From Paludibacterium sp. B53371 (GTDB lineage Bacteria > Pseudomonadota > Gammaproteobacteria > Burkholderiales > Chromobacteriaceae), in NCBI RefSeq assembly GCF_018802765.1, contig NZ_CP069163.1, positions 1,674,001-1,738,000 of the forward strand: a stretch of 64,000 bases of DNA, in the 5' to 3' direction. A program made the translations under genes and the position numbers. The number at the start of each line of letters is the position of its first letter. Position 1 is the first letter of the stretch. Positions 190 through 13,203 of this stretch are shown piece after piece. A model generated the notes under the pieces. That model did not search any database. It saw only the letters and a program-made list of their open reading frames with translations, and had not been told where the DNA came from.

Positions 190-3100
190 TCAGACGGCCT
201 TGCTGCCGGTGCGGCGTTCGCGCCAGGAGACGATCACCACATACAGCACCGGCACGAAGGCAACGGCCAGCACGGTCGAAGCCAGCATGCCGCTGAAAAC
301 GGTCAGGCCGATGGAGACGCGTGCGGCGGCACCCGCGCCACTGGACAGGATCAGCGGCACGACGCCGAGAATGAAGGCAAACGAGGTCATCAAAATCGGG
401 CGGAAGCGGCGGCGCGAACCTTCCAGTGCCGCATGCACCAGATCATGGCCCTCATGCCGCATCTCCTGCGCCACCTCCACGATCAGAATGGCATTCTTGG
501 CCGATAGGGCGATCAGCAACACCAGACCAATCTGAACGTAGATGTTATTGGCCAGCCCTACCGCCCACAGCACAGTGACCGTGCCGACCAGTGACATCGG
601 TACGGCCAGAATCACCGGCACCGGCAGCCACCAGCTTTCGTACTGGCCCGCCAGCACCAGATAGACCAGCAGAATAGCCAGACCGAAGACCAGTACCACC
701 GAGCTGCCCACCAGCTTCTCCTGGTAGGACAGGGCGGTCCACTCATAGCTGACGCCCTGTGGCAGGACTTCGGCCGCCACTTCTTCCATGGCCGTCAGTG
801 CCTGACCCGAGCTGTAGCCGTTGGCGGCCGCGCCGTTGATGGTTGCCGTCGGGTACATCTGGTACTGCGAAATCAGTGCCGGGCCGCTGACCTGTTTCAC
901 CGACAGGAAGGCGCCGAGCGGTACCATATTGCCACTGCTGTTGCGTACGGTGAGCGCCGAGATCTGCTCGCTGCGCATGCGGAAGTCCTGATCAGCCTGC
1001 ACATAAATGGTGTAGTTCTGGCCAAATTTGGAGAACTGACCAACATAGGACGAACCCAGATAGCTTTGCAGCACGTCATACACATCGTTGACCGCCACGC
1101 CAAGCATTTCGGCCCGGGCTCGGTTAATGGTCAGCGACAGCTGCGGCACCTGGGTGCGCAGCGGCGTGAAGGCCTGCTGGATTTCCGGACGCTGCTTGGC
1201 GGCAGCGATCAGTCGATCGGCAGCATCCGACAGCTTGTTCAGGTCGCCGCTGCCGTCGGTCAGCTCCAGTTGCATCTGGAAGCCTCCGGACATGCCCAGC
1301 CCGGGAATGGGCGGCGGCACCATGACCAGCGGACGGATGTCCGGCAGGGCATGCAAACGTTCGTTCAGTGTGAGGTAAATGTTCTTCAGACTCTGTTGCT
1401 TGTCCTTGCCGCGCTCAGCCCAGTCGGTCAGGGTCAGATAGACCAGACCGGCATTGGCCAGTGAGGCGTTGCCGTCCAGCGGCGACACGCCACCGATGGT
1501 GATGGCGTGCTTGACGCCCGGAATGGCGCGCGCGATCTCTGACACCTGGCTCAGGGCCTTGTCGGTGCGCTGTATCGAGGCGGCATCCGGCAACTGCACC
1601 GCCACCAGCATATAGCCCTGATCTTCGGTCGGGATAAAGCCGGTCGGCAGCTTGGCCAGCCCGACGATGGCCACCACGATCAGCCCCAGCGCCACCAGGG
1701 TACTGGTCTTGCGCGCGCCGACCAGCCGCTCGATCAGACGGGCGTATTTGACCTCCAGCGGGTTATAGACGCGGTCAAAGGCGCGGAAGAAAGCATTCTT
1801 TGGCTTGCTGTGGTCATGCACGCGCACATACTTGGCCGACTGGGTCGGTTTGAGCGTAATGGCGTTAATGCCGCTGATCAGGGCGGTGGCCGCGATGACC
1901 AGGGCGAACTGGCGATACATCTGACCGGTAATGCCGGGAATGAAGGCCGCCGGCAGGAAGACCGACATCAGCACCAGCGTAATGCCGATGATCGGCCCCA
2001 TCAGTTCCTTCATGGCGGTGATGGCAGCGTCATGAGGCGTTTTGCCGGCCTCGACATGCTTGGCCACGCCTTCCACCACCACGATGGCATCGTCCACCAC
2101 AATCCCGATACAAAGCACCAGGGCGAACAGCGTCAGCAGATTGATGGAAAAGCCCATGGCGGCCATGGCGGCGAAAGCGCCGATGATGGTGATCGGCACG
2201 GTCGTGGCCGGTACCAGGGTGGCGCGCCAGTCCTGCAGGAAAATGATGATCACCAGCAAGACCAGAATGCCGGCCTCGTAGAGGGTCTTGTACACCTCGT
2301 CGATCGAAGCCTTGACGAACACCGTGGTGTCAAACGGCACATCGTACTGAATGCCGGGCGGGAAGCTCTTGCTCAGGCGGGTCATTTCATTTTTCACCGC
2401 TTCGGCGGTGGCCAGTGCATTGGCATCCGGCAACTGATAGATGGCAACGCCCCCCGCCGGCTTGCCGTCCAGCGTGAACGACTGGCCATAGCTCTGGCTG
2501 CCCAGTTCGATGCGCGCCACGTCACGCAGTCGCGTGACAGCACCGCTGCTGTCCGTCTTGAGGATGATGTCGCCGAAGTCGGCGGCGGAATTCGGCGCCC
2601 CCGCCAGGTTGACGGTCAATTGCTGCGCCTGGCCGGGTCTGGCCGGCGGTGCGCCGATCTGGCCGACACTGATAGGCTGGCTTTGCTTGTTGACCTGGGC
2701 AATGACATTAGCCGGCACCAGGCCGCGCTGTTTCATCTGTTGCGGGTCCAGCCAGATCCGCATGCTGTACTGGCCGACACCGAAAACGGTGACATCGGCC
2801 ACGCCCGGCAGACGGCTCAGGCGGTCCTTGAGTTGCAGGCTGGCAAAGTTGCTGAGGAACAAGCCGTCCATTTCCGGCTTGTCGGAGGACAGGGTGATGA
2901 TCTGCAGGATGCTGGTGGATTTCTTCTTGGTCACCACCCCCTGTTGCTGCACGGCATTCGGCAGCAGCGGCACGGCGGCATTGACCCGGTTCTGTACCGC
3001 CACCTGGGCCTGGTCGGCGTCAGTCCCGACGGCAAAACTCACCGTCAGGGTGTAGCGCCCGTCGTTGGAGGAGGTCGACTGCATGTAAATCATGCCTTCA

Positions 3101-3318
3101 ACGCCATTGACCTGCTGTTCAATGGTGCGCGCCACCAGTTGCTGTACGGTCAGGGCGCTGGCCCCGGGGTAGGTGGTCGTCACCGAGATGGTCGGCGGGG
3201 TCAGCTGCGGGTATTGCGATACCGACAGGCCAAACACCGACACCGCACCGATCAGCACGGTGATCCAGGCGATCACGTTGGCCAGAATCGGTCGTTCAAT
3301 AAAAAACTTGGCAATCAT
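190..3318 (-). CDS. RND multidrug efflux pump, inner-membrane transporter (HAE1 family, MexF/OqxB-like)
   Basis: Proton-driven exporter of the hydrophobe/amphiphile efflux family, expected to sit as a trimer in the inner membrane and to connect to the adaptor and outer-membrane factor encoded just upstream. The 1042 residues match the usual length near 1050. The N-terminus MIAKFFIERPILANVIAW is characteristic. Transmembrane segment 4 carries the proton-relay pair in VVDDAIVVVE near residue 405, and segment 10 carries the partner lysine in ALSAKNAILIVE. Two large periplasmic loops follow TM1 and TM7. The gene starts 26 bases after the adaptor stop codon and is the third gene of the operon. Substrate cannot be read from sequence; organic solvents, phenicols or quinolones would be typical of MexF-like pumps. 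Confidence 0.92.
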   Translation of the reverse strand: MIAKFFIERPILANVIAWITVLIGAVSVFGLSVSQYPQLTPPTISVTTTYPGASALTVQQLVARTIEQQVNGVEGMIYMQSTSSNDGRYTLTVSFAVGTDADQAQVAVQNRVNAAVPLLPNAVQQQGVVTKKKSTSILQIITLSSDKPEMDGLFLSNFASLQLKDRLSRLPGVADVTVFGVGQYSMRIWLDPQQMKQRGLVPANVIAQVNKQSQPISVGQIGAPPARPGQAQQLTVNLAGAPNSAADFGDIILKTDSSGAVTRLRDVARIELGSQSYGQSFTLDGKPAGGVAIYQLPDANALATAEAVKNEMTRLSKSFPPGIQYDVPFDTTVFVKASIDEVYKTLYEAGILVLLVIIIFLQDWRATLVPATTVPITIIGAFAAMAAMGFSINLLTLFALVLCIGIVVDDAIVVVEGVAKHVEAGKTPHDAAITAMKELMGPIIGITLVLMSVFLPAAFIPGITGQMYRQFALVIAATALISGINAITLKPTQSAKYVRVHDHSKPKNAFFRAFDRVYNPLEVKYARLIERLVGARKTSTLVALGLIVVAIVGLAKLPTGFIPTEDQGYMLVAVQLPDAASIQRTDKALSQVSEIARAIPGVKHAITIGGVSPLDGNASLANAGLVYLTLTDWAERGKDKQQSLKNIYLTLNERLHALPDIRPLVMVPPPIPGLGMSGGFQMQLELTDGSGDLNKLSDAADRLIAAAKQRPEIQQAFTPLRTQVPQLSLTINRARAEMLGVAVNDVYDVLQSYLGSSYVGQFSKFGQNYTIYVQADQDFRMRSEQISALTVRNSSGNMVPLGAFLSVKQVSGPALISQYQMYPTATINGAAANGYSSGQALTAMEEVAAEVLPQGVSYEWTALSYQEKLVGSSVVLVFGLAILLVYLVLAGQYESWWLPVPVILAVPMSLVGTVTVLWAVGLANNIYVQIGLVLLIALSAKNAILIVEVAQEMRHEGHDLVHAALEGSRRRFRPILMTSFAFILGVVPLILSSGAGAAARVSIGLTVFSGMLASTVLAVAFVPVLYVVIVSWRERRTGSKAV

Positions 3319-3344
3319 CAGATTGTGCTTTCTCGTTGCCGCAT

Positions 3345-4448
3345 TTACTGGGCGGGTTTGCCGGAATCAGCCTGCGCAGCCACCTTCTGGCCGACGCCCA
3401 CATTGCTCAGGCCCTGGGTGATAACACGGTCAGATGCCGAAATACCGTCGGTGATTTCACGCAACTGGTCGAAGTCTGCACCGGTTTTGACGTTGCGCCG
3501 TACGACCTTCGAGTCGGCATCCACCACATAGACGTAGTTGCCCAACTGGTCATTCAGGACCACGGATGACGGGACCAGCAGCGCCTGATGGGGCTTGCTG
3601 ATGCCAATGAATACCTTGCTGTACAGGCCCGGAATCAGGTGCAAATCCTTGTTGTCGAATTTGGCGCGCAGCTGCAGGCTGCCGGTGGCGGCGGCCAGCG
3701 TATTGTCGATGAAATCCAGTTCGCCGGTTTCGGATGGCGTGGCCTCGCCCTGGAGGGCCGCGCCGACCTTGATCTTGCCGACGCCGGCTTTGGCGGTTCC
3801 TTCCTTGTCAACGCCCGCCTTGCGCAGGCGCAGCAGATCACGTTCATTGACCGAGAAGTTGACATAGGCGGGCCGCAGGCGCGTCAGGGTGGCCAGCACG
3901 GTCCCCCCGGCCCCGGCGCCGACATAGTTGCCGACATCCACGGTCCGTTTGCCGATCACCCCATCAAAGGGGGCGCGTACGGCGGTGTAATCAAGATTGA
4001 TCTGTGCCAGACGCAAATTGGCTTCGGCCTGTTGCAGGTTTGACAGTGCCGATTCGACGCTGGATTGCGCCGTGGCGTTTTCCTTCATCAGCACCTGCTG
4101 GCGCTGGTACTCAGATCGCGCCTGATCCAGCTTGGCCTGGTTGAGCTTGACTTGCTGCTGATAGGGATCCGGTTCGATGACAAACAGCAGTTGCCCCTGT
4201 TTGACCTGGGCCCCTTCGGCAAACGGTGCGGATTGCAGATAGCCGCTGACGCGCGCCACCAGATTGACGGATTCGGAAGGTGCCACGGTGCCATCCAGCT
4301 GGATGGTGTCGGTCACTTCACGCTGAATCGGTTGCTGAAACACCACCTGCGGCAGCGGCGGTTCGGCGACCGGTTTCTTGTCGCTGCACGCCAGGCAGAG
4401 CAGGGCGGTGAAGGTCATCAGAAAGACAGAACGAGGGCTCGTATTCAT
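3345..4448 (-). CDS. RND efflux periplasmic adaptor (membrane fusion lipoprotein)
   Basis: Links the inner-membrane RND pump to the outer-membrane channel. The 367-residue product starts with a lipoprotein signal ending in the lipobox LCLAC, so the mature protein should be anchored by an acylated Cys. It then shows the adaptor layout: a biotinyl-lipoyl-like half (VARVSGYLQS near residue 70), an alpha-helical hairpin rich in Gln/Ala (LNQAKLDQARSEYQRQQ), the second lipoyl half (YTAVRAPFDGVIGKR), and a beta-barrel/membrane-proximal region to the C-terminus. Its ATG overlaps the stop of the outer-membrane factor gene by 4 bases, so translation is probably coupled. Confidence 0.9.
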   Translation of the reverse strand: MNTSPRSVFLMTFTALLCLACSDKKPVAEPPLPQVVFQQPIQREVTDTIQLDGTVAPSESVNLVARVSGYLQSAPFAEGAQVKQGQLLFVIEPDPYQQQVKLNQAKLDQARSEYQRQQVLMKENATAQSSVESALSNLQQAEANLRLAQINLDYTAVRAPFDGVIGKRTVDVGNYVGAGAGGTVLATLTRLRPAYVNFSVNERDLLRLRKAGVDKEGTAKAGVGKIKVGAALQGEATPSETGELDFIDNTLAAATGSLQLRAKFDNKDLHLIPGLYSKVFIGISKPHQALLVPSSVVLNDQLGNYVYVVDADSKVVRRNVKTGADFDQLREITDGISASDRVITQGLSNVGVGQKVAAQADSGKPAQ

Positions 4449-6004
4449 TGTGCGGGTCTCTGGCTATTCGGAAGATCAAGCGCGTCACCCCAGTTGGTGC
4501 GCGCCCGCATGGTTTTGGTGATGTTGTCCGGCAGGGATGCCGTCAGCTTGCCGTCCCAGCCGCCGCCCAGTGCGCGGTAAACCGCGACAAAGGACTGCAG
4601 CAGATTGCCTTGTGCCTGGGCCAGGCCGTCCTCGACCTGTAGCTGGGCCTGATAGGCGGTGGTCACGGTGGTGAAGTCCGATTCGCCGGATTTGTAGCGT
4701 TCGAGTGCCAGTACGGTGCTGCGTCGGGCGGCTTCAGCCGCGGCATTCAGGCGCTGGCGCGATTCGCGGTTGCCGGCGATGGCAGACAGCGCGTCTTCCA
4801 CCTCCTGCTGGGCACCGAGCACCTGGTTCTGATAATTCAGGATCGCCTGTTCGAAGGCAGCATCCTGTACCCGCACCTGATTGACCAGCTGGCCATGATT
4901 GAAAATCGGCATCAACAGGCCGGCCGTGGCGCTGCTGACCGGGTTATGCCATTTGAACAGGTCATCCAGATGATTGCTGCCGCTGTCCGAGGACTGAAAA
5001 CCGAAGCTGCCGCCGAGGGAGAAGCTCGGGAACAGGGCGGCCTTGGCCTGACCGATGCGCGCCGACTGGGCGATTGCTGCATACTCGGCCTGCAGCACAT
5101 CCGGCCGCCGCTGCAGCAAGTCGCGCGGAATCCCCGAGGGGACGCCGGTCGGCACACTGGGCATGGGGGCTGCGGCAGCAAACTGTCGCTGATAGTAGTC
5201 CGGGGTCTGGCCAACCAGCACGCTCAGCGCGTGTTGCGCTTGCTGCAGGGCGGCACGCAGTGTCGGCAAATTGGCGCCGGTTTGCTCGTACAGGACCTGA
5301 GCCTGGCGCAGATCCTGCTCGCTGGAGGCGCCGGCACGGAAGCGGGCATTGGCAATGCGCAGGTTTTCCGCTTGTTGCTTCAGGTTGTCCTGCGCGACCT
5401 GCAGGCGTTGCTCCAGCGTGCGCAAATTGAAGTAGGTGGTGGCGATATTGGCTTCCAGCGCTACCATGGCCGCCTGGTAGGCGGCGACGGTCGACAGCCA
5501 GCTGGCTTCATTGCCCTCAACTTCGCGACGGGCAGCGCCCCACAGGTCTGGTTCCCAGGAGGCTTGCAGGCTGAGTTGCTGCGTGGTGCCGCCGCCGGTT
5601 TTGCCCTGTAGCTGGTTGGCCAGGTCCGGCTTGCTGTAGCTGCGGCTGAATGACAGTTGAACAACCGGCCATTCGGCACCTTGCGAGATGCCCAGTTGCG
5701 CTCGCGCCTGGGCGATACGAACGGCCGCACTTTGCAGGGTTGGACTGTTGTCGCGACCGAGTTGCAGCAGCTGGCTTAGTCTGGGGTCGGCAAACTGCTG
5801 CCACCAGACGGCAAGCTGGGCTTCATCGGCTTGATCGGTCGGGCTTTGCCAACTGGATTGCACCGAGACGTCCGGGCGCTGATAGTCCGGGCCGACGGCG
5901 CAGGCCGACAGTGTCAGACAGATCAGGGCGGACAGACAGCGCTTGGCGAAAGGTGCAGGGAGTCGCTCGAACCGGGCGGCGACATTGTTATATATCGTTG
6001 TCAT
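4445..6004 (-). CDS. RND efflux outer-membrane factor, NodT/OprM family lipoprotein
   Basis: Trimeric outer-membrane channel of the tripartite exporter. The 519 residues contain a basic N-terminus and lipobox LTLSAC followed by AVGPDYQRP, the classic NodT/OprM start. Two homologous TolC-like halves follow, with long Gln/Ala-rich helices and the family motif RRPDVLQAEY near residue 320. It is the first gene of the operon, the reverse of the commoner adaptor-pump-channel order. The start codon is about 20 bases from the palindrome proposed as the TetR operator, so repression of the whole operon from this point is the simplest model. Confidence 0.9.
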   Translation of the reverse strand: MTTIYNNVAARFERLPAPFAKRCLSALICLTLSACAVGPDYQRPDVSVQSSWQSPTDQADEAQLAVWWQQFADPRLSQLLQLGRDNSPTLQSAAVRIAQARAQLGISQGAEWPVVQLSFSRSYSKPDLANQLQGKTGGGTTQQLSLQASWEPDLWGAARREVEGNEASWLSTVAAYQAAMVALEANIATTYFNLRTLEQRLQVAQDNLKQQAENLRIANARFRAGASSEQDLRQAQVLYEQTGANLPTLRAALQQAQHALSVLVGQTPDYYQRQFAAAAPMPSVPTGVPSGIPRDLLQRRPDVLQAEYAAIAQSARIGQAKAALFPSFSLGGSFGFQSSDSGSNHLDDLFKWHNPVSSATAGLLMPIFNHGQLVNQVRVQDAAFEQAILNYQNQVLGAQQEVEDALSAIAGNRESRQRLNAAAEAARRSTVLALERYKSGESDFTTVTTAYQAQLQVEDGLAQAQGNLLQSFVAVYRALGGGWDGKLTASLPDNITKTMRARTNWGDALDLPNSQRPAQ

Positions 6005-6024
6005 AACGGCCCTTGATGTTTCTT

Positions 6025-6036
6025 GTCTATATAGAC
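6025..6036. promoter_or_regulatory. Palindromic candidate operator for the TetR-type repressor
   Basis: GTCTATATAGAC is a perfect 12-bp palindrome in the 133-base gap between the divergent efflux operon and the TetR-family gene. Its position, close to the efflux start codon and inside the likely overlapping promoters, fits the autoregulated repressor arrangement common for TetR/RND loci. Binding is inference. Confidence 0.55.
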
Positions 6037-6137
6037 CATCCAGGTCAAAGATGCTTCGAGCATATGGTGTTTTTATTGCGTTTCATTATTATGAATTCCA
6101 TTCAGTTTTCATACTCGCATTTACCAAGGCGTTGGAT

Positions 6138-6782
6138 ATGTCGGAAAACAAAGATCAACCCATTGATTTAATGACAAAAAAACCGAAGCAGGCGCGTGCC
6201 AGGCTGACGGTGAAGCTGATTTTCGAGTCCACAGCTCAGATTATTTTGCGCGAAGGTGTCGACAAACTGACCACCAACCGCATCGCCGAAGTAGCGGGTT
6301 TTAGTGTCGGGACTTTGTATCAGTACTTCCGCAACAAGGAGGCCATTCTGCTGGCCATGGCCAGGCATGAGACCGAGCACATGATTGGTGAAATCGATGC
6401 CTTGTTCGACGAATATGCCGGTGCCGCGACGACGGGATTAGCCGGTGCCCTGGTCGGATTTCTGATGCAGACCTTTTATCATCGGCGCGCCATCCGCCGA
6501 CAGATTGCCTGTGCCATTTTCCAGCGACAGGTATTGCTCAACCTGTATCCGGTTATCGCCGCCGTCGAGAGCCATGTGGCGCAATGCCTGCTCGATCGGC
6601 AGGCTCCAGACATGCGTCTGCTGAGCGAAGCCGAAGCCTATGTGGCATCCCGCAGTTTGATCGGCACGCTACGTGCCGGTGTATTGGAACATTCTGAATG
6701 GGCGGACCATCCCGCCTTTCAACAGGCGCTGGAGCGGCAACTGCTGGCCATGTTGCTGCCCACAGACGGGGGAGGGGGCTGA
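6138..6782 (+). CDS. TetR/AcrR-family repressor of the divergent efflux operon
   Basis: A 214-residue one-component regulator. The N-terminal helix-turn-helix is plain: TTNRIAEVAGFSVGTLYQYF near residues 45-65, preceded by the usual LTVKLIFESTAQIILREGVD helix. The C-terminal ligand-binding domain is all-helical and divergent, as expected. The ATG at 6138 is preferred because AAGGCG lies about 7 bases upstream; an in-frame ATG at 6171 is also possible, and the longer upstream reading frame has no such support. Transcribed away from the RND operon, so it probably represses it and is relieved by a pump substrate. The stop codon is 2 bases from the stop of the convergent small membrane protein gene. 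Confidence 0.88.
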   Translation: MSENKDQPIDLMTKKPKQARARLTVKLIFESTAQIILREGVDKLTTNRIAEVAGFSVGTLYQYFRNKEAILLAMARHETEHMIGEIDALFDEYAGAATTGLAGALVGFLMQTFYHRRAIRRQIACAIFQRQVLLNLYPVIAAVESHVAQCLLDRQAPDMRLLSEAEAYVASRSLIGTLRAGVLEHSEWADHPAFQQALERQLLAMLLPTDGGGG

Positions 6783-6784
6783 CG

Positions 6785-7177
6785 TCAGTAAAACAGCCAC
6801 TTGAGGATAAATGGCAGAATAATGACGAATAGCAGAACACTGTTTTCGAAGAAAAATCTTTTCAGCCGATGATCGGGGGCGCCGAGTGCAGATCTTACGT
6901 CCCCGACGGATTTGCATGGCGATGCCCCGCAGGCCATCAGCGTGATGGCGCCGACGGCCATGGATAAAGCAAACCATGGCATGCCGGATTGATAGGCGGC
7001 CATCGCGACAAGCAGCATCAATATATAGAAATAGATGAATTTTATTCGGTGCGATTTCCTGCACGCATGGCGATACCCGTTATTTTGCTGCATAAAGCGC
7101 TCTCGAAATGATTTCCCGGCAATCAGATGATTGCCGGGAAATGCCGAATGATATGACTGCAGGTCATTATTTTGCAT
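6785..7177 (-). CDS. Small membrane protein, candidate bacteriocin immunity protein
   Basis: Not recognisable by family. Starting at the ATG at 7177 the product is 130 residues; an internal ATG at 7093, preceded by GAGAG at good spacing, gives 102. A basic N-terminal region (YRHACRKSHRIK) is followed by hydrophobic segments: FIYFYILMLLVAMAA, then WFALSMAVGAITLMACGA, a polar loop KSVGDVRSALGAPDHRLKR, and a C-terminal segment NSVLLFVIILPFILKWLFY. Three membrane passes in about 100 residues is the usual architecture of class II bacteriocin immunity proteins. It lies 20 bases downstream of a double-glycine-leader peptide on the same strand, and local G+C is visibly lower than in the flanks. The immunity role is inference from context only. 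Confidence 0.5.
   Translation of the reverse strand: MQNNDLQSYHSAFPGNHLIAGKSFRERFMQQNNGYRHACRKSHRIKFIYFYILMLLVAMAAYQSGMPWFALSMAVGAITLMACGASPCKSVGDVRSALGAPDHRLKRFFFENSVLLFVIILPFILKWLFY
7111..7142. other. Perfect 13-bp hairpin at the peptide/membrane-protein junction
   Basis: ATTTCCCGGCAAT (7111-7123) and its exact reverse complement (7130-7142) flank a 6-base loop. No T-tract follows on either strand, so it is not a standard intrinsic terminator. On the minus strand it falls between the bacteriocin-like gene and the second start codon of the membrane protein, inside the N-terminal codons if the longer start is used. It could be a processing, stability or translational control element. Confidence 0.7.
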
Positions 7178-7197
7178 CAGCCCTGTGCTATTGCGGG

Positions 7198-7464
7198 TTA
7201 CAGACTGCCGGCAATCGCGCCGGTTGCCGCCGCAATTCTGGGAGCATAGTAGGCGGCACGAGCGCCCACCGGACCGGCAATGGCACCCTGAACAGCGCCC
7301 CCTGCGGTATATACGCCGAGTTGTGCCCAACTGAACTGCCCGCTGGTTACCACCGATCCGAGATAGCCCGCTGCGCCAGAGACGCCGCCCACCACGGCGC
7401 CAGACGGACCCCAGGCACCATTGACTAACATGATTTCAGAATTGCTCATGTCGCGCATTGCCAT
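7198..7464 (-). CDS. Double-glycine-leader bacteriocin/microcin-like precursor peptide
   Basis: An 86- or 88-residue precursor. The ribosome binding site AAGGAG is followed by ATG at 7464 (3-base spacing) and again by ATG at 7458 (9-base spacing); the second fits the leader better. The leader MRDMSNSEIMLVNGA matches the class II double-glycine rule: hydrophobic at -12, Ser at -11, Glu at -8, Ile at -7, Val at -4, Gly at -2, Ala at -1. Cleavage there would give a 71-residue product starting WGPSG, rich in Gly and Ala, with repeated GxxxG motifs (GAVVG, GAVQG, GAIAG) and few charges, typical of pore-forming class II peptides. No peptidase-containing ABC exporter is visible in this window, so export would need a partner encoded elsewhere. 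A possible immunity gene follows 20 bases downstream. Confidence 0.65.
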   Translation of the reverse strand: MAMRDMSNSEIMLVNGAWGPSGAVVGGVSGAAGYLGSVVTSGQFSWAQLGVYTAGGAVQGAIAGPVGARAAYYAPRIAAATGAIAGSL

Positions 7465-8017
7465 TTACTCCTTGTGTGATTTGGTTTAAGTCCGACTGGC
7501 TTTTTATTAAGCTGCCGTTGCAAGCAAAATCTAAAATCTGCGCGGATTTTTTGTCAAAGTGGTTAGGGGCCGGAAATAAGCAAAGGGCCACGACGATTTA
7601 AGCCATTTCTGGCGCGGTGGTTGGCGCGGTTGTTGGCGGTGGAAAGACTGTAGCGGCGCGGCCATCATGCAAGGAGGCACCCGGATGGCCGGCCAGTCCC
7701 GACAGACGCAAAGGGTATTTCACCGCGAGTGGGCAGCCGTGTCTGGCACGCGATGCCAGAATGACTGACCGGACGGGGCATTCAGTCCTGCATCAGGCTC
7801 GGAACGCAGAGAACCTGAGGCGGATCTCAACCAGCATGTCATGGTTCGTATAATACATATTATGTCAAATACGGTTGATCCTGTCTGGCGCAAGGTCGGG
7901 CCTTTGCCAGTTCGCCCCAATGCGCGATGAGATCATCTCCTGGCCACCCCCCGGGCAATGACTGGACTGGCCGCCTGGTCTGACGTAGCATGCCGCTTCT
8001 CACTCACAGGAGTTGTC
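7465..8017. other. Intergenic region with an AT-rich inverted repeat and promoter-like site
   Basis: About 550 bases without a convincing gene. ATAATA-CA-TATTAT (7850-7863) is an inverted repeat that includes a TATAAT hexamer at 7849-7854, a possible -10 element and operator for the ArfA-like gene 160 bases downstream; no good -35 is visible. From 7602 an open frame lacking a start codon reads AISGAVVGAVVGGGKTVA, a Gly/Val-rich stretch resembling a piece of a bacteriocin-like peptide, but it continues into unconvincing sequence. Confidence 0.4.
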
Positions 8018-8179
8018 ATGCGACAGAAAACGGCAAGAATCAATCCGGTCGCCAAGTTCGCCCGGGAGCTGCAACGCTGCAAGCCCTTCACCGATCGCAA
8101 GAAGCGACAGAAACAAGGTTACAGCAAGCACAAGAAAGTGGAGGTTTTTATGCCTCCACTTTTATTTTGCGTAATTTGA
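8018..8179 (+). CDS. arfA: ArfA-like alternative ribosome-rescue factor (small basic protein)
   Basis: A 53-codon frame with a strong ribosome binding site (AGGAG, 5-base gap, ATG at 8018). The product is very basic: INPVAKFARELQRCKPFT, then DRKKRQKQGYSKHKK. This resembles the F-x-x-R...K-x-G-S/Y-x-R-K-x-K-H core of ArfA/DUF7230-type proteins that recruit a release factor to ribosomes stalled on mRNAs without a stop codon. A transcription terminator begins within the codons right after KHKK and ends before the stop codon, so most transcripts would lack a stop. That is how known proteobacterial arfA genes are built: the product is made from non-stop mRNA, tagged by tmRNA when tmRNA works, and stable when it does not. 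Sequence similarity is weak because the protein is short; the embedded terminator is the stronger argument. Confidence 0.65.
   Translation: MRQKTARINPVAKFARELQRCKPFTDRKKRQKQGYSKHKKVEVFMPPLLFCVI
8135..8168 (+). terminator. Intrinsic terminator inside the ArfA-like coding region
   Basis: AAAGTGGAGG (8135-8144) pairs with CCTCCACTTT (8153-8162) as a perfect 10-bp stem over an 8-base loop, followed by TTTATTTT (8161-8168). The stop codon of the ArfA-like frame is at 8177-8179, so transcription should end about 10 bases before it and leave a non-stop message. Confidence 0.85.
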
Positions 8180-8221
8180 AAACGTACGTTTTCTATCAAC
8201 CCCCGCCGTTATACTTCTCCT

Positions 8222-8797
8222 TCACCAAAATTGTCCGAGTGGCAGATCCAGATCCAGCTCTCCGCTTGCAAACCGCGCCATGGACTGATGAGCCTTGTCC
8301 GAGATGGGGCGCAGCAAGACCGTCTTGCCGCTGCTCAGGCTGTCCAGGGCGCCAGTCTGCCGCCCTCCCCGCAAAATCAGCCCCGGCATTGCTTGCCAGC
8401 CGGCTTGTTCGTAAAAGCGTTTTAGTGGCGGGTCACAGGTAAAAACACAGAAATCGGCGGAAGATCGCCGCAGTGATTGCCAGGCCTGCTGCAGCAGTTG
8501 CTGCCCGATGCCGGATTGTCGGTGTGCCGGGTGGACGCAAACACAACTCAGTCCGCTGGCCAGCCAGCGATGTTGCTGATCGTGAACCGGTTTGCTCAGG
8601 ATGGCGGCATAGGCGATATAGTTCTCGTCCTGACAGCCCAGGATGCACCGTGGAGCCAGTGAGAGATCATGGGCGGGCTGCTCAACAGACGGGATGGCCG
8701 GCTCGGCCGGCCAGACCAGGTCGAGTAATTGATGGATCCGCTGGCGCTGCTGCGGATCGGTGTCGGCATATGCCAGGGTATGCCAGTGCAGGCTCAT
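8222..8797 (-). CDS. GNAT-family N-acetyltransferase
   Basis: A 191-residue acyl-CoA-dependent acetyltransferase. The acetyl-CoA pyrophosphate-binding motif is seen in VCVHPAHRQSGIGQQLL near residues 90-105, followed by the C-terminal GNAT strand pattern CVFTCDPPLKRFYEQAGW. The layout recalls aminoglycoside 2'-acetyltransferase-like GNATs, but the substrate cannot be inferred. AAGGA lies 6 bases upstream of the ATG. It is divergent from the YdeP-like oxidoreductase gene, with about 90 bases between the two starts. Confidence 0.82.
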   Translation of the reverse strand: MSLHWHTLAYADTDPQQRQRIHQLLDLVWPAEPAIPSVEQPAHDLSLAPRCILGCQDENYIAYAAILSKPVHDQQHRWLASGLSCVCVHPAHRQSGIGQQLLQQAWQSLRRSSADFCVFTCDPPLKRFYEQAGWQAMPGLILRGGRQTGALDSLSSGKTVLLRPISDKAHQSMARFASGELDLDLPLGQFW

Positions 8798-8884
8798 GCG
8801 GATTCCTTTTCTTCTGTAGGCAAATGCGTCGTACGGGACTATAGTCGCCAGCTACCCATTGATTCTTTCCAGATGGAGCAAGGC

Positions 8885-11191
8885 GTGAGCGAGCATAACA
8901 AACCGGGCAAGATTCTTCCTTATCCCAAAGCCGCCGGCGGTTGGGATGCCATCCGCTTTTCCGCCCTCAGCCTGCGCCAGGAAAAGGTTGACCTGAGCAA
9001 CCTCAAAGCGTTTTTCAAGCAAAATCAGCCGAGCGGCTTTGATTGCCCGGGTTGCGCCTGGCCGGAGCGCAAGCACACCAATCGGCTGGAGTTCTGTGAG
9101 AACGGCGTCAAGGCGGTGGCAGCGGAAATCACCAGCAAGCTGGTGACGGCCGACTTTTTTGCCCGTCATACGGTCAGCGAGCTGATGCAGCAGTCCGACT
9201 ATGAGCTGGAGCAGCATGGCAGGCTGGCCGAGCCGATGTGCTATGACCCGCAGAGCGACAAATATCTGCCGATCAGCTGGGATCAGGCGTTTGCGTTGAT
9301 TGCCCGCCATTTGCAGGCCTTGCCGAGTCCGGATCAGGCGGCTTTTTATGCCTCTGGCCGGACCAGCAATGAAGCCGCCTTCCTGTTGCAGCTGTTTGCC
9401 CGCCGTTACGGTACCAATAATTTCCCGGATTGTTCGAATATGTGCCATGAGGCCACCAGCCGTGGCTTGCCGGGCACGGTCGGCATCGGCAAGGGGACGG
9501 TGACGCTGGAGGATTTTGAACTGGCCGACACCATCCTGATTTTCGGTCAGAATCCCGGGACCAATCATCCGCGCATGTTGGGCGAACTGCGGGAAGCCGC
9601 CCGGCGCGGGGCCACCCTTGTCTCGATTAATCCGTTGCGCGAACGCGGCCTGGAGCGCTTCACCAGTCCGCAGCACAGCGCGGAAATGCTGGCCGGCGGC
9701 AGTACCCCATTGTGCTCGCTGTTTATTCGTCCCCGCCTGGGCGGCGATTTTGCCTTGATCAAGGCGCTGGCCAAGCGGGTGGTCGAGCTGGATGATGATG
9801 CGCAGCGCCACGGCGCTCCGCGTGTGCTGGATGAGGCCTTCATTGCCGGGCATACCGTCGGCTTCGCCGAGTTTGCCGCTGACTTGCGCGGCGAAGACTG
9901 GGCGGCCCTGGTCGAGGAGTCCGGGGTCTGTCGTGAAGAGATCGAACAACTGAGCGCAATTTTCGTGCGTGGCCAGGCGGTGATCAGCACCTGGGGCATG
10001 GGCCTGACCCAGCACCAGCGCTCCGTGCCGACCATTCAGATGCTGTCCAATCTGATGATGATGCGCGGCATGATCGGCCGACCGGGTGCCGGGCTGTGTC
10101 CTGTGCGGGGTCACTCCAATGTGCAGGGCAATCGTACCGTCGGGATTGAGGAGCGCCCTGCCCCGGCTTTTCTGGACCGGCTGGCCGCTGTGTATGGTTT
10201 TGAGCCGCCGCGTCATCACGGACTGGATGTTGTGGCGACGATTCAGGCCATGCTGGCCGGCGATCTGAAGGTGTTCTTGGCGCTGGGGGGCAATTTTGCC
10301 ATGGCGGCACCAGACACCCCGCGTACTTTTGCTGCCCTGCGCCAGTGCGAGCTGACCGTACAGATCACCACCAAACTCAATCGCAGCCATCTGGTGCATG
10401 GCAAGGCGGCGCTGATTCTGCCGACGCTTGGCCGCAGCGAGATCGATCGGCAGCAAGGGGTGGCGCAGTGCGTGACGGTGGAGGATTCGATGAGCATGGT
10501 GCATGCATCACGCGGCTTCAAAGAGCCGGCGTCGGCGGCGCTGCGCTCCGAAGTGGCCATTCTGTGCGGCGTGGCGCAGGCCACCCTGGGCAAGGCGCCG
10601 CTGGACTGGGCTCGCTTGTGTGGTGACTACAGCCTGATTCGTGACGAAATTGCCAGGGTGTTTGAGGATTTCGCGGATTACAATCAGCGTATCCTGGCGC
10701 CGGGGGGCTTTCATCTCGGCGTCGCCTCGCGGGACCGGGTCTGGCGTACCGAGTCGGGCAAAGCGCAGTTTCAGGTGCATGCGCTGGATCGGGATACGCC
10801 GATTCACCGGGCACGTCGTCAGCATGGCGATCGACTGCTGGTGCTGATGACGACCCGTTCGCATGATCAGTACAACACCACGATCTACGCGCTGGACGAT
10901 CGTTATCGGGGTGTTTATGGCCAGCGCGACGTGGTGTTTGCCAATTCACAGGATATCGAGCGCCTCGGGTTGCGTGACGGGGATCGCGTCGATTTATCCA
11001 CTGTATGGGATGACGGTGTGTCGCGCATGCTGTCCGGCTTTCTGCTGGTGGCTTATGACATTCCGCCCGGCTGTCTTGCGGCCTATTTCCCGGAGGCCAA
11101 TCCGCTGGTCCCCCTGGATAGTGTCGGCATACAAAGCAATACCCCGACCTCCAAGTCGATCCCGGTGCTGATGCAGCGGCACCTGTCCTGA
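8885..11191 (+). CDS. ydeP: YdeP/FdhF-type molybdopterin oxidoreductase
   Basis: A cytoplasmic molybdenum-cofactor enzyme of the YdeP (formate dehydrogenase H-like alpha) family, which in Escherichia coli is linked to acid resistance; its physiological substrate is not established. The likely product is 768 residues. Family landmarks run in order: AAGGWDAIRFSALSL at the N-terminus, GFDCPGCAWPE with the conserved Cys pair, FYASGRTSNEAAFL, NFPDCSNMCHE, NPGTNHPRML, RGHSNVQGNRTVGI, TKLNRSHL and, near the end, TTRSHDQYNTTIY. The GTG at 8885 is chosen because GGAG lies 6 bases upstream; an in-frame ATG at 8873 has no such site, and the protein family begins at this point. Confidence 0.9.
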   Translation: MSEHNKPGKILPYPKAAGGWDAIRFSALSLRQEKVDLSNLKAFFKQNQPSGFDCPGCAWPERKHTNRLEFCENGVKAVAAEITSKLVTADFFARHTVSELMQQSDYELEQHGRLAEPMCYDPQSDKYLPISWDQAFALIARHLQALPSPDQAAFYASGRTSNEAAFLLQLFARRYGTNNFPDCSNMCHEATSRGLPGTVGIGKGTVTLEDFELADTILIFGQNPGTNHPRMLGELREAARRGATLVSINPLRERGLERFTSPQHSAEMLAGGSTPLCSLFIRPRLGGDFALIKALAKRVVELDDDAQRHGAPRVLDEAFIAGHTVGFAEFAADLRGEDWAALVEESGVCREEIEQLSAIFVRGQAVISTWGMGLTQHQRSVPTIQMLSNLMMMRGMIGRPGAGLCPVRGHSNVQGNRTVGIEERPAPAFLDRLAAVYGFEPPRHHGLDVVATIQAMLAGDLKVFLALGGNFAMAAPDTPRTFAALRQCELTVQITTKLNRSHLVHGKAALILPTLGRSEIDRQQGVAQCVTVEDSMSMVHASRGFKEPASAALRSEVAILCGVAQATLGKAPLDWARLCGDYSLIRDEIARVFEDFADYNQRILAPGGFHLGVASRDRVWRTESGKAQFQVHALDRDTPIHRARRQHGDRLLVLMTTRSHDQYNTTIYALDDRYRGVYGQRDVVFANSQDIERLGLRDGDRVDLSTVWDDGVSRMLSGFLLVAYDIPPGCLAAYFPEANPLVPLDSVGIQSNTPTSKSIPVLMQRHLS

Positions 11192-11192
11192 T

Positions 11193-11210
11193 GCCCCCCC
11201 CGGGGGGGGC
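11193..11210. repeat. C8G8 perfect palindrome between convergent genes
   Basis: GCCCCCCCCGGGGGGGGC begins 2 bases after the stop of the YdeP-like gene and ends 10 bases before the stop of the convergent hydrolase gene. It could act as a bidirectional stop for polymerase, but there is no T-tract and no loop. Homopolymer runs of this kind are also prone to length variation and sequencing error. Confidence 0.7.
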
Positions 11211-11219
11211 TTCGTGCTG

Positions 11220-12185
11220 TCAGAATGCGCCGATTTGTGTGCCGAGTGGCAACATGAGGCCGGCGTGATTGACCGTTTGCCGAGGCGGTTGCCCGCTGCC
11301 CGGGCAGGGTGGAACCGGCGATGCTGCCGCCCGCTCGCCGATGAAGCGCCCTGCTTCGCTTGCCACCAGTCCCTTTTGATTGTCGACCGTGATGACATGG
11401 TAGCAATCCTCCAGAATCAGTTTTTCGACATGTGATGAGCCCAGCCGGCGAGCGAGATAGTGCGCATTGCGCGGACTGGCGACGTTGTCTTCGCGGGCGT
11501 GCAGGATCAGGGTGGGTGCGCTGATGTCGCGCAGCCGTCGTTTGGTTGACCGCATCAGGCTGCGCATTTCCCGAATGCTTTCTGCCGGCGTCCGGCTATA
11601 GGCGACACGGGATCGTTCCCCCATTTTTTCGGACATCCGCTTGCGCATGCCCTGATTTTTGATGCCATAGTTGCCCCCTTCCTTGTATGACCAGAAGCGT
11701 CTCAGCGGTGTGTAGAGCACCAGGGGCAGCAAAAAGCTGTACCAGGGGATGGCGGGACCGTCATAGGCCAGTGTGGTGGACATGGCGACCACCGATGCCA
11801 CGCGCGTACTCTGGCGTGCCGCCAGTTGCAGCGACAACAGGGCACCGAGGCACAGGCCGGCGACTGAAACGTGCGCATGGCCGGCACACAATGCCTCGAA
11901 ATGATGCTCGGCGGCCTGGTACCAGTCTTGCCAGCGGGTTTGGGCGAGTTCGGCGACGCTTTGGCCGTGCCCCGGCAAGACCGGAATACGAACGGTGTAA
12001 CCCTGCTGGTGGAGCGATCTGGCGACGTGCATGACTTCGAAAACATTCCCGGCCAGGCCGTGGATCAACAGTACGGCGTGCGGTCCGCCATCGAGCTGAA
12101 TGAAGTGAATGGTTTTGCCCAGTTGCGTACTGTCGACATGTACGCCAGGCGGGGTTTCCGCGATGGCTCGGGTTTGTGGTGACAT
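11220..12185 (-). CDS. Alpha/beta hydrolase with Cys nucleophile (tandem copy 1)
   Basis: A 321-residue carboxylesterase-like alpha/beta hydrolase. The oxyanion motif IHGLAG (from residue 41) and PVLPGHG are present. The nucleophile elbow reads GLCLG, with Cys112 where esterases carry Ser. Asp233 (HAREDNVAS) and His263 (DCYHVIT) complete a Cys-Asp-His triad like that of dienelactone hydrolase. It is paralogous to the next gene on the same strand along its length, including the near-identical block IPWYSFLLPLVLYTPL. The C-terminal 35 residues beyond the catalytic domain are Pro-rich and unlike the neighbour. No signal peptide is seen, so it is probably cytoplasmic. Substrate unknown. Confidence 0.82.
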   Translation of the reverse strand: MSPQTRAIAETPPGVHVDSTQLGKTIHFIQLDGGPHAVLLIHGLAGNVFEVMHVARSLHQQGYTVRIPVLPGHGQSVAELAQTRWQDWYQAAEHHFEALCAGHAHVSVAGLCLGALLSLQLAARQSTRVASVVAMSTTLAYDGPAIPWYSFLLPLVLYTPLRRFWSYKEGGNYGIKNQGMRKRMSEKMGERSRVAYSRTPAESIREMRSLMRSTKRRLRDISAPTLILHAREDNVASPRNAHYLARRLGSSHVEKLILEDCYHVITVDNQKGLVASEAGRFIGERAAASPVPPCPGSGQPPRQTVNHAGLMLPLGTQIGAF

Positions 12186-12196
12186 GATGGCGATCG

Positions 12197-12226
12197 ATGG
12201 CCGCGGGAGACGCCTCCCGTGGCCAT
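12197..12226. other. Stem-loop between the tandem hydrolase genes
   Basis: ATGGCCGCGGGAG (12197-12209) pairs with CTCCCGTGGCCAT (12214-12226) over a 4-base loop, with one G-T pair. It has no T-tract on the minus strand. It separates the two paralogous genes and may protect or process the upstream transcript. Confidence 0.5.
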
Positions 12227-12255
12227 GTTTAGGGTGGGGTGAGCGAGGTGCGGGC

Positions 12256-13203
12256 TCAGGCGGCCATGCCGCAGGCCTGACCTCGTTGCGACAGGCGGTT
12301 GTCCAGTGACAGGGACTGGCGGGCCTGCAGGACGAGCGACTCGCATTTTGCGCGTTCGTCTTGCTGACTGAGGAACCTGGCGGCCTCTTCCGCCACCAGC
12401 GCGCGCTGATTGTCGACGGTGATCAGATGGTAGCAGTCATCCAGGATGACCTTGCGCGTATAGGACGAGCCCAGGTGGCGTTCGAGATAGTCGGCATTGC
12501 GTACGCTGGCGACTTCGTCTTCCTGTGCGTGCAGGATCAGTGCCGGTGCCGTGACCTTGCCCAGTCGCTGCTTGGTGGCGCGGATCATGCGTCGCATTTC
12601 CAGCACGCTGGTGGCCGGAGTCCGGTCGTAAAAGGTGGTGGACGTTTTGGCCATGGTGCTGGCTACCCGCTTGCGAATGGTCGGATTCTTGACGCCATAA
12701 TTGCCGCCCTCTTTGTACGACCAGACGTGCTTGAGCGGCGTGTAGAGCACCAGGGGCAGCAAAAAGCTGTACCAGGGCATCGAGTAGCCGTCATAAGCCA
12801 GCGTGGTCGACATGGCGATCACCGAGGTGACGCGCTCGCGCTTCTGGGAAGCCAGATACAACGCCAGGACCGAACCCATGCACAGACCGGAAACCGACAC
12901 CCGGGCGTAGTTCTCGGCCAGTGCCTCGAAATGGTTCTCCGCGGTCTGGTACCACGCTTGCCAGGTGGTGTTGGCCAGATCTCGCACTGAGGTCTGATGG
13001 CCGGGCAGGATCGGGATACGAACGGTGTAGCCGCGCCGGTTCAGCTGTTTGGCGACGTACATCACCTCGGTGGCCGAGCCCGACAGGCCGTGCAGCATGA
13101 GAATGGCATGACGCCCGCCTTCAAGATGAATGAAGTCTTCGGAATGCAATGTCTGGCAACCGGTGGATGAAGCGGCATCTGTGCTGTGCATGGCGCGGCT
13201 CAT
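12256..13203 (-). CDS. Alpha/beta hydrolase with Cys nucleophile (tandem copy 2)
   Basis: A paralogue of the adjacent gene. With the ATG at 13203 the protein has 315 residues and an N-terminus of about the same length as its partner; a GTG at 13251 would add 16 residues, and neither start has a good ribosome binding site. Motifs: MLHGLSG, PILPGHQ, nucleophile elbow GLCMG with Cys108 instead of Ser, Asp229 (HAQEDEVAS) and His259 (DCYHLIT). Both copies therefore keep Cys, so the substitution predates the duplication. The C-terminal tails differ. Possible activities include hydrolysis of small esters or lactones; none can be assigned. Confidence 0.8.
   Translation of the reverse strand: MSRAMHSTDAASSTGCQTLHSEDFIHLEGGRHAILMLHGLSGSATEVMYVAKQLNRRGYTVRIPILPGHQTSVRDLANTTWQAWYQTAENHFEALAENYARVSVSGLCMGSVLALYLASQKRERVTSVIAMSTTLAYDGYSMPWYSFLLPLVLYTPLKHVWSYKEGGNYGVKNPTIRKRVASTMAKTSTTFYDRTPATSVLEMRRMIRATKQRLGKVTAPALILHAQEDEVASVRNADYLERHLGSSYTRKVILDDCYHLITVDNQRALVAEEAARFLSQQDERAKCESLVLQARQSLSLDNRLSQRGQACGMAA

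Follow-up and report, generated by a model that had tools for sequence, protein, structure and literature searches.

A candidate double-glycine bacteriocin and its putative immunity gene, with a predicted exporter elsewhere in the genome

Two small adjoining genes in the 64,000-nucleotide stretch of DNA analyzed here (the window) probably encode an unmodified double-glycine bacteriocin, similar to the class II microcins, and its cognate immunity protein, with the exporter encoded at a remote site. The genes themselves, a family of peptides with a common leader and core, a conserved downstream membrane gene, and an intact exporter were all found by computation. We infer that the precursor would be cleaved and exported by the exporter at 740 kb with the help of an outer channel, that the product would kill by acting on a target in competitors, and that the membrane protein would confer immunity. 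The features of the region are the following (window coordinates).

6138..6782 (+): TetR-family regulator, convergent neighbor and one border of a variable slot; also present in the sister genome G002
6785..7177 (-): candidate immunity protein, 130 aa, three hydrophobic helices; start perhaps at 7093 (102 aa)
7198..7458 (-): bacteriocin-type precursor, 86 aa, from the better-spaced ATG and homologues; 88 aa from ATG 7464
7201..7413 (-): predicted mature peptide, 71 aa, N terminus Trp-Gly-Pro, from the family alignment
7414..7458 (-): double-glycine-type leader MRDMSNSEIMLVNGA, predicted C39 cut after Ala15, from sequence and the family leader matrix
7465..7480 (-): ribosome-binding region ATCACACAAGGAGTAA
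7528..7557 (-): promoter-like TTGACA-18-TAGATT upstream of the peptide, 10/12, consensus match only
8222..8797 (-): GNAT acetyltransferase, the other border of the variable slot

The AGGAG ahead of the peptide frame lies 3 nt from ATG 7464 and 9 nt from ATG 7458, and the second start is therefore likelier. Either way, the frame of 86–88 aa is the small Gly/Ala-rich gene with a strong ribosome site that the original prediction had described. The fit of the leader MRDMSNSEIMLVNGA to the double-glycine rule is also as claimed at every position, with Met at −12, Ser at −11, Glu at −8, Ile at −7, Val at −4, Gly at −2, and Ala at −1. The leader is thus 15 aa long, ends in GA, and has hydrophobic residues in Met −12, Ile −7, and Val −4. 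The predicted core of 71 aa (6.6 kDa, computed pI 9.5) contains 16 Gly, 17 Ala, 2 Arg, and 0 acidic residues; glycine makes up 19.8% of the precursor and 22.5% of the core. The abundance of GxxxG motifs stressed originally is true as a number (five, overlapping) but nothing special, since shuffled sequences average 3.25 (P 0.18). Composition alone yields such numbers, and the motif was dropped as evidence. The coding score of the peptide is +7.7 bits, and AlphaFold models were of low confidence (pLDDT 69 and 64).

By itself, the leader is no more than chance would provide and is weak evidence. A general matrix built from 30 leaders, of which relatives supplied 28 and other parts of the same genome 2, gave it 9.3 bits, which is under all 30 leave-one-out scores (13.9–29.2). 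By this matrix, a set of 40 simulated 64-kb windows contained 37 ATG starts that equaled the window leader, 3 of them with a ribosome site. A rerun with 29 leaders returned 31 equal starts in 60 simulated windows (2 with a site), and a rerun in which G, A, or S was permitted at −1 returned 9 in 60 (1 with a site). Depending on the matrix, chance would supply 0.15–0.9 ATG starts of equal quality in every 64 kb. The leaders of the peptide's own family use Ala or Ser freely at −1, and with a matrix made from that family, the window peptide left out, 3 of 52,529 simulated starts equaled it and 0 had a ribosome site. The deciding evidence for the peptide is this family of homologues, which the original prediction had missed.

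When the window peptide alone was used to search the order (399 genomes), six genomes besides its own gave matches, with E values down to 3.9e-11, followed by 2.0e-8, 2.3e-8, and 4.5e-8. The kept matches begin at residue 2–5 and hence include the leader. Four copies are found in G344 and one each in G289, G214, G337, and G376; a match in G274 was discarded, lying in a frame of 9410 aa. An alignment of the window peptide and homologues (A1, nine rows) has Gly14, Gly20, Ala21, and Gly62 invariant, and the motif [FW]GPxGA opens the core in six of the nine. Within G344's family, 83 genomes were searched with a profile, which matched 22 places in 13 genomes, all of one genus. Altogether, where no family had been recognized before, 26 homologous places with a double-glycine-type leader lie outside the window's own genome, and the closer members also share the core. 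Homologues without the leader pattern would have spoken against the original prediction; by eye, 24 of 25 readable leaders end in G[GAS], the exception being L128 (L139, whose leader region is missing, was left out of the count). Similarity to the window core exceeded that of shuffles with z 9–13 in 8 of 14 members and z 5.4–5.9 in three more. The cores of L144, L152, and L153 gave z <2 against the window peptide, with which they may share the leader only. Sequence homology over leader and core thus places the window peptide in a [FW]GPxGA leader-peptide family, defined here, of which no published description was found in the accessible parts of the open-licence literature.

Open frames arising by chance in an intergenic region of low G+C would suit a leader that alone is not rare and a weak coding signal, but are contradicted by homologues of this significance and by the conserved gene order described below; we consider this reading extremely improbable. 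As a separate observation, six members (L136, L141, L144, L148, L151, and L153) carry a leader close to MQLAELSxxEMKETEGA before very different C-terminal parts, as if a single cassette had been fused to many cores.

Searches beyond the family gave little. Among 120 relatives, 21 genomes, including the peptide's own, had a match with E up to 0.1, the best foreign match reaching only E 0.003, and the next match in the rest of the own genome was at E 2.6. PHROGs gave a single match (E 0.4) and the PDB, searched by peptide sequence, 7 chains (best E 0.31). Nothing convincing was found on plasmids and phages (tblastn), on viral contigs, on genome contigs, or in PADLOC, and plasmid searches with the homologues L125 and L124 had no match. 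A class-wide profile search matched 2 of 369 genomes, the own genome and G769, of which the latter was discarded as a weak match in a 333-aa frame. When the profile was compared with the PDB, homology was not accepted for a phycocyanin chain (E 0.003), where no stretch passes on its own, nor for hemolysin E chains (E 0.21–0.76) and others, 13 chains in all.

The genus of G344 can be tentatively named from a repeated sequence. GCCGTCTGAA, the Neisseria DNA uptake sequence, is present in 84 copies in the 56 kb of G344's four stretches, where about 0.1 would be expected in 14 kb. Of the genus's 22 short loci, 15 have at least one copy (44 copies in 70.8 kb); the window has 0 copies. Because of these counts, the genus is probably Neisseria.

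The second gene of the pair begins 20 nt past the stop codon of the peptide and runs to 6785, two bases short of the 3′ end of the TetR gene, which is convergent with it. A small three-pass membrane gene 20 bases downstream had been proposed, and the 130-aa product indeed has three hydrophobic segments, at residues 45–61, 69–85, and 113–129. Translation may start at M1, which has a weak ribosome site, or at M29. The four loops carry net charges of +5, 0, +2, and 0 in order, from which the positive-inside rule predicts an N-in, C-out orientation with the net positive charge inside. Its position next to the peptide and its size fit a candidate immunity protein, taken as 51–216 aa with membrane helices. 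The coding score of the gene is about 0 to +4 bits, and its synonymous codons are atypical for the window. No convincing homologue of the protein was seen in 120 relatives (best foreign E 0.006), nor anything convincing in genome contigs, viral contigs, or plasmids, and in the 399 genomes of the order only the own genome matched. Sub-cut-off Pfam and NCBIfam matches (E 0.048 and 0.06) were too weak to be believed.

A membrane gene in this position is a regular companion of the family. To count as a downstream partner, a gene had to encode 50–135 aa with at least two membrane helices and start within 150 nt. Such a gene is present at 18 of 26 places outside the window (19/27 including it). Among the controls, it follows 2 of 71 genes taken from the longer stretches and 42 of 1500 randomly chosen positions; with one helix allowed, the counts are 21/27, 11/71, and 166/1500. 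The 16 places at E ≤1e-6, which are 14 of the 22 places of G344's genus together with L127 and L128, have a gene with at least two helices downstream in 13 cases, L128's neighbor being accepted by the script criterion alone. Eight of the 26 homologous places have no two-helix gene downstream. In 15 pairs including the window, the similarity of cores goes with that of partners (Mantel r 0.76, p 0.0001), and the partner proteins fall into groups matching the core groups. The rank correlation of the same pairs is weak, however (Spearman 0.26, p 0.04), and the correlation is therefore driven by close paralogues. The window partner has no sequence similarity to the other partners (best z 1.4), and its helices are laid out as in L127's partner. 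Taken together, the frequency of the partner relative to the control genes and its co-variation with the core support the proposed pairing of a candidate toxin with a candidate immunity protein.

The peptide frame appears by eye to be broken or truncated at 8 of the 22 places of G344's genus, and at six of these eight a two-helix membrane gene is still open. Three comparisons of partners beside broken and intact frames gave pN 0.013–0.040 and pS 0.21–0.23. Much of this divergence may be older than the breakage of the peptide; the low pN supports a role in immunity and does not by itself prove continued selection after peptide loss. Decay of this kind might suggest that the window cassette, too, is a relic whose peptide has ceased to be exported or expressed and which is retained only as immunity, and the weak leader score, the atypical codons of the membrane gene, and the remote exporter could be read in the same way. 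The window peptide, however, has an unbroken frame, a strong ribosome site, and a leader that fits the family matrix, which makes a relic improbable.

The open membrane genes also bear on the main rival explanation, which by analogy with the Nap system of Neisseria gonorrhoeae is self-lysis by a leader peptide. More generally, the exported peptide could act on the producer population as a signal or as an autolysis or biofilm factor, and the membrane protein could be a receptor, holin-like, or an accessory. The gonococcal double-glycine peptides are described as mediating autolysis, and NapH as a predicted three-helix, holin-like membrane protein (PMC11798529). Against this, the downstream protein of the present family varies between subfamilies together with the core, and a membrane gene that is open at six of eight loci with a broken peptide is more in keeping with immunity than with a receptor or helper role. 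A self-acting peptide is thus unlikely, and a bacteriocin with its cognate immunity protein is the preferred reading.

The pair lies in a variable slot bordered by the TetR and GNAT genes. In the sister genome G002, the interval between the orthologous TetR gene (65% identical) and a GNAT gene holds other genes, by eye including an apparent toxin-antitoxin pair, and not the peptide/membrane pair; an orthologous TetR gene at E 1e-30 is found in only one of five other genomes of the genus. The pair is therefore most likely an accessory insertion. In 500-base windows, the G+C content is 0.49–0.58 at 6.0–8.5 kb versus 0.57–0.66 elsewhere in the first 13 kb, which bears out the patch of lower G+C seen originally.

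A further small frame, at 8020–8178 (+), encodes a 52-aa basic peptide (...RKKRQKQGYSKHKK...) that is conserved in G002 (L061 3350–3547 (+)) and had no match in Pfam and NCBIfam scans. Both copies have a strong hairpin within the frame, just past YSKHKK (z −5.9 in the window and −5.1 in L061); the hairpin at 8134–8163 was called terminator-like in the window and not in L061. The frame presumably resembles an arfA/brfA-type ribosome-rescue gene, made from non-stop mRNA. For brfA, a terminator preceding the stop codon is described (PMC8012679).

The exporter had been expected elsewhere in the genome, and a search for C39 domains found two places, at about 740 kb and about 2.416 Mb. The first has a Peptidase_C39 match of 118 bits (Pfam) and an intact triad of Cys24, His97, and Asp113 (counted from L038:9763), with the spacing of 73 and 16 seen between the catalytic residues of CvaB (PMC9746304). 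It is adjoined by an HlyD-type gene (HlyD_3 58.7 bits), and judged by sequence it is a true, intact CvaB/CvaA-type C39 exporter. Of the eight proteins in this domain scan, the one from L144 was an unintended frame and was left out. The second place was rejected as the pump: its catalytic Cys and His are missing by eye, and the domain, which scored 21.4 against a Pfam cut-off of 22 in one scan and 24.7 in another, looks degenerate. This C39-like ABC exporter (L039 9806–11998 (+)) stands beside a very long repetitive frame, and the two resemble an adhesin secretion system.

The 740-kb exporter (at 740,340) and the peptide (at 1,681,201) are 0.94 Mb apart, and the usual proximity of the two is thus not seen. 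A leader-pattern scan of 19 kb around the exporter gave no leader peptide. A 79% identical copy exists in G002, and both copies adjoin, by eye, the same histidine-degradation-type genes. Of 20 stretches surrounding related exporters in relatives, 15 contained leader-type small frames, some doubtful (L102 clearly), and the five stretches without them include four of the closest exporters (57–59% identity). Within the [FW]GPxGA family, a C39 exporter lies beside the peptide at two of eight loci with longer flanks (L125 and L129), and none was found among the genes within 3.5 kb at the other six; the 18 further places were viewed as pieces of about 3 kb. Because six of the eight longer loci show no C39 exporter, peptides without an exporter at hand are common in this family. 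At the L125 locus of G344, several different leader peptides are interleaved with small membrane proteins (3031–12459 (+)), upstream of the HlyD-type gene and the C39 exporter.

The search for other double-glycine leaders in the genome, also proposed originally, produced two at about 3.196 Mb (L041 1369–1569 and 2460–2750 (-)), of the type MKQVxCxQMRxIS...GG. They adjoin genes for larger, apparently inter-related proteins, and similar peptides are present in G002 (L062); their cores differ from the window core. Elsewhere, in G003, a tandem array of three paralogous leader peptides, their cores glycine-zipper-like, was noticed (L063 6116–7048 (-)), with no exporter among the frames at 3.5–9.5 kb.

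A further reading is that the window peptide supplies only one component of a class IIb (two-peptide) bacteriocin, with the second encoded elsewhere, or that several remote peptides, this one among them, use a common exporter. In this direction point the two peptides at 3.196 Mb, the two family places about 1 kb apart in each of G851 and G344, and the homologue L124, which passes the cut-off of the class IIb model TIGR03949. However, both members of the neighboring pairs in G851 and G344 have their own membrane gene downstream, the window holds one family peptide and the rest of the genome none, the 3.196-Mb peptides have different cores, and the window peptide itself has no match to TIGR03949. 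Such an arrangement is accordingly quite unlikely, and a single bacteriocin with its own immunity gene remains the preferred reading.

The two genes would then form a small bacteriocin operon. The C39 ABC exporter encoded at 0.74 Mb, with its HlyD-type partner, may recognize the leader of the 86-aa precursor and would cut the precursor after Gly-Ala to give the 71-aa peptide. This cationic, Gly/Ala-rich, presumably helical peptide would leave the cell with the aid of a putative TolC-type channel and might insert into, or permeabilize, the inner membrane of competing relatives. In the producer, the three-helix protein of 130 aa would sit in the inner membrane and block the cell's own peptide.

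Seen across the family, the data tentatively suggest a broader picture, to which we give slightly less than even chances: an unnamed family of exporter-less bacteriocin/immunity cassettes may move between genomic slots, in Neisseria and in other members of its order, as cargo for resident C39 exporters, with the immunity half swapped together with the core and outliving the toxin half. If this were true, genomes would carry a scattered library of immunity genes. The window organism encodes at least three leader peptides, which may depend on a common exporter, and the pair would be one candidate weapon among them. Screens restricted to the neighborhood of exporters would miss such pairs; the cinful screen, as described, required presence in the assembly (PMC9746304). 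A 2022 review states that no Neisseria bacteriocin had been genetically and biochemically characterized, that the genes of a proposed meningococcal bacteriocin were unidentified, and that two secretion genes had been implicated (PMC9263626); the Nap peptides were published later, in 2025 (PMC11798529). In a genus marked by the Neisseria uptake sequence, the [FW]GPxGA family offers candidates for both peptide and immunity gene that are defined and testable.

Among known systems, the pair is most readily compared with class II microcins, for which the criteria described are a leader of 15–18 aa ending in GG or GA, hydrophobic residues at −4, −7, and −12, and 12–26% glycine (PMC11494933, PMC9746304), with the peptide usually encoded near the exporter (PMC11494933). 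Analogous to microcin V and CvaAB, the window peptide has such a leader with its hydrophobic positions, about 20% glycine, a C39 exporter with an HlyD-type protein, and a small membrane neighbor. It differs in that its exporter is 0.94 Mb away, that the peptide has no match to a curated family, and that its host, inferred from its order, is probably outside Enterobacterales. Indeed, Pfam and NCBIfam, including TIGR03949, TIGR01847, and PF10439, gave no match to the window peptide. TIGR03949 (class IIb, lactobin A/cerein 7B) matched the homologue L124 with 34.4 bits against a cut-off of 21.5, whereas among the seven other homologues scanned only L126 matched, at a sub-cut-off 18.3 bits. TIGR01847 matched the own genome at 3.196 Mb only, and PF10439 one of nine aligned members (E 0.028). 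The pair is thus filed as a candidate of the general class II microcin kind rather than as a member of the curated bacteriocin families.

The gonococcal Nap peptides are likewise described as small and leader-bearing, with a C39 peptidase (PMC11798529), and come from a genus that is probably in the window's order. Their mature forms of 16–36 aa and their described self-lysis set them apart, and the comparison is by description only. An experimental precedent, by analogy, for a pair such as this is McbC/McbI of Moraxella catarrhalis, in which a double-glycine bacteriocin gene is followed by a small immunity gene, with mcbA and mcbB as secretion genes; immunity by McbI is reported from cloning, and the four mcb genes are transcriptionally linked (PMC2761928). 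There, the secretion genes belong to the linked set, unlike in the window. The likeness meant here is one of gene arrangement: a bacteriocin gene followed by a small immunity gene, which in the window is a candidate.
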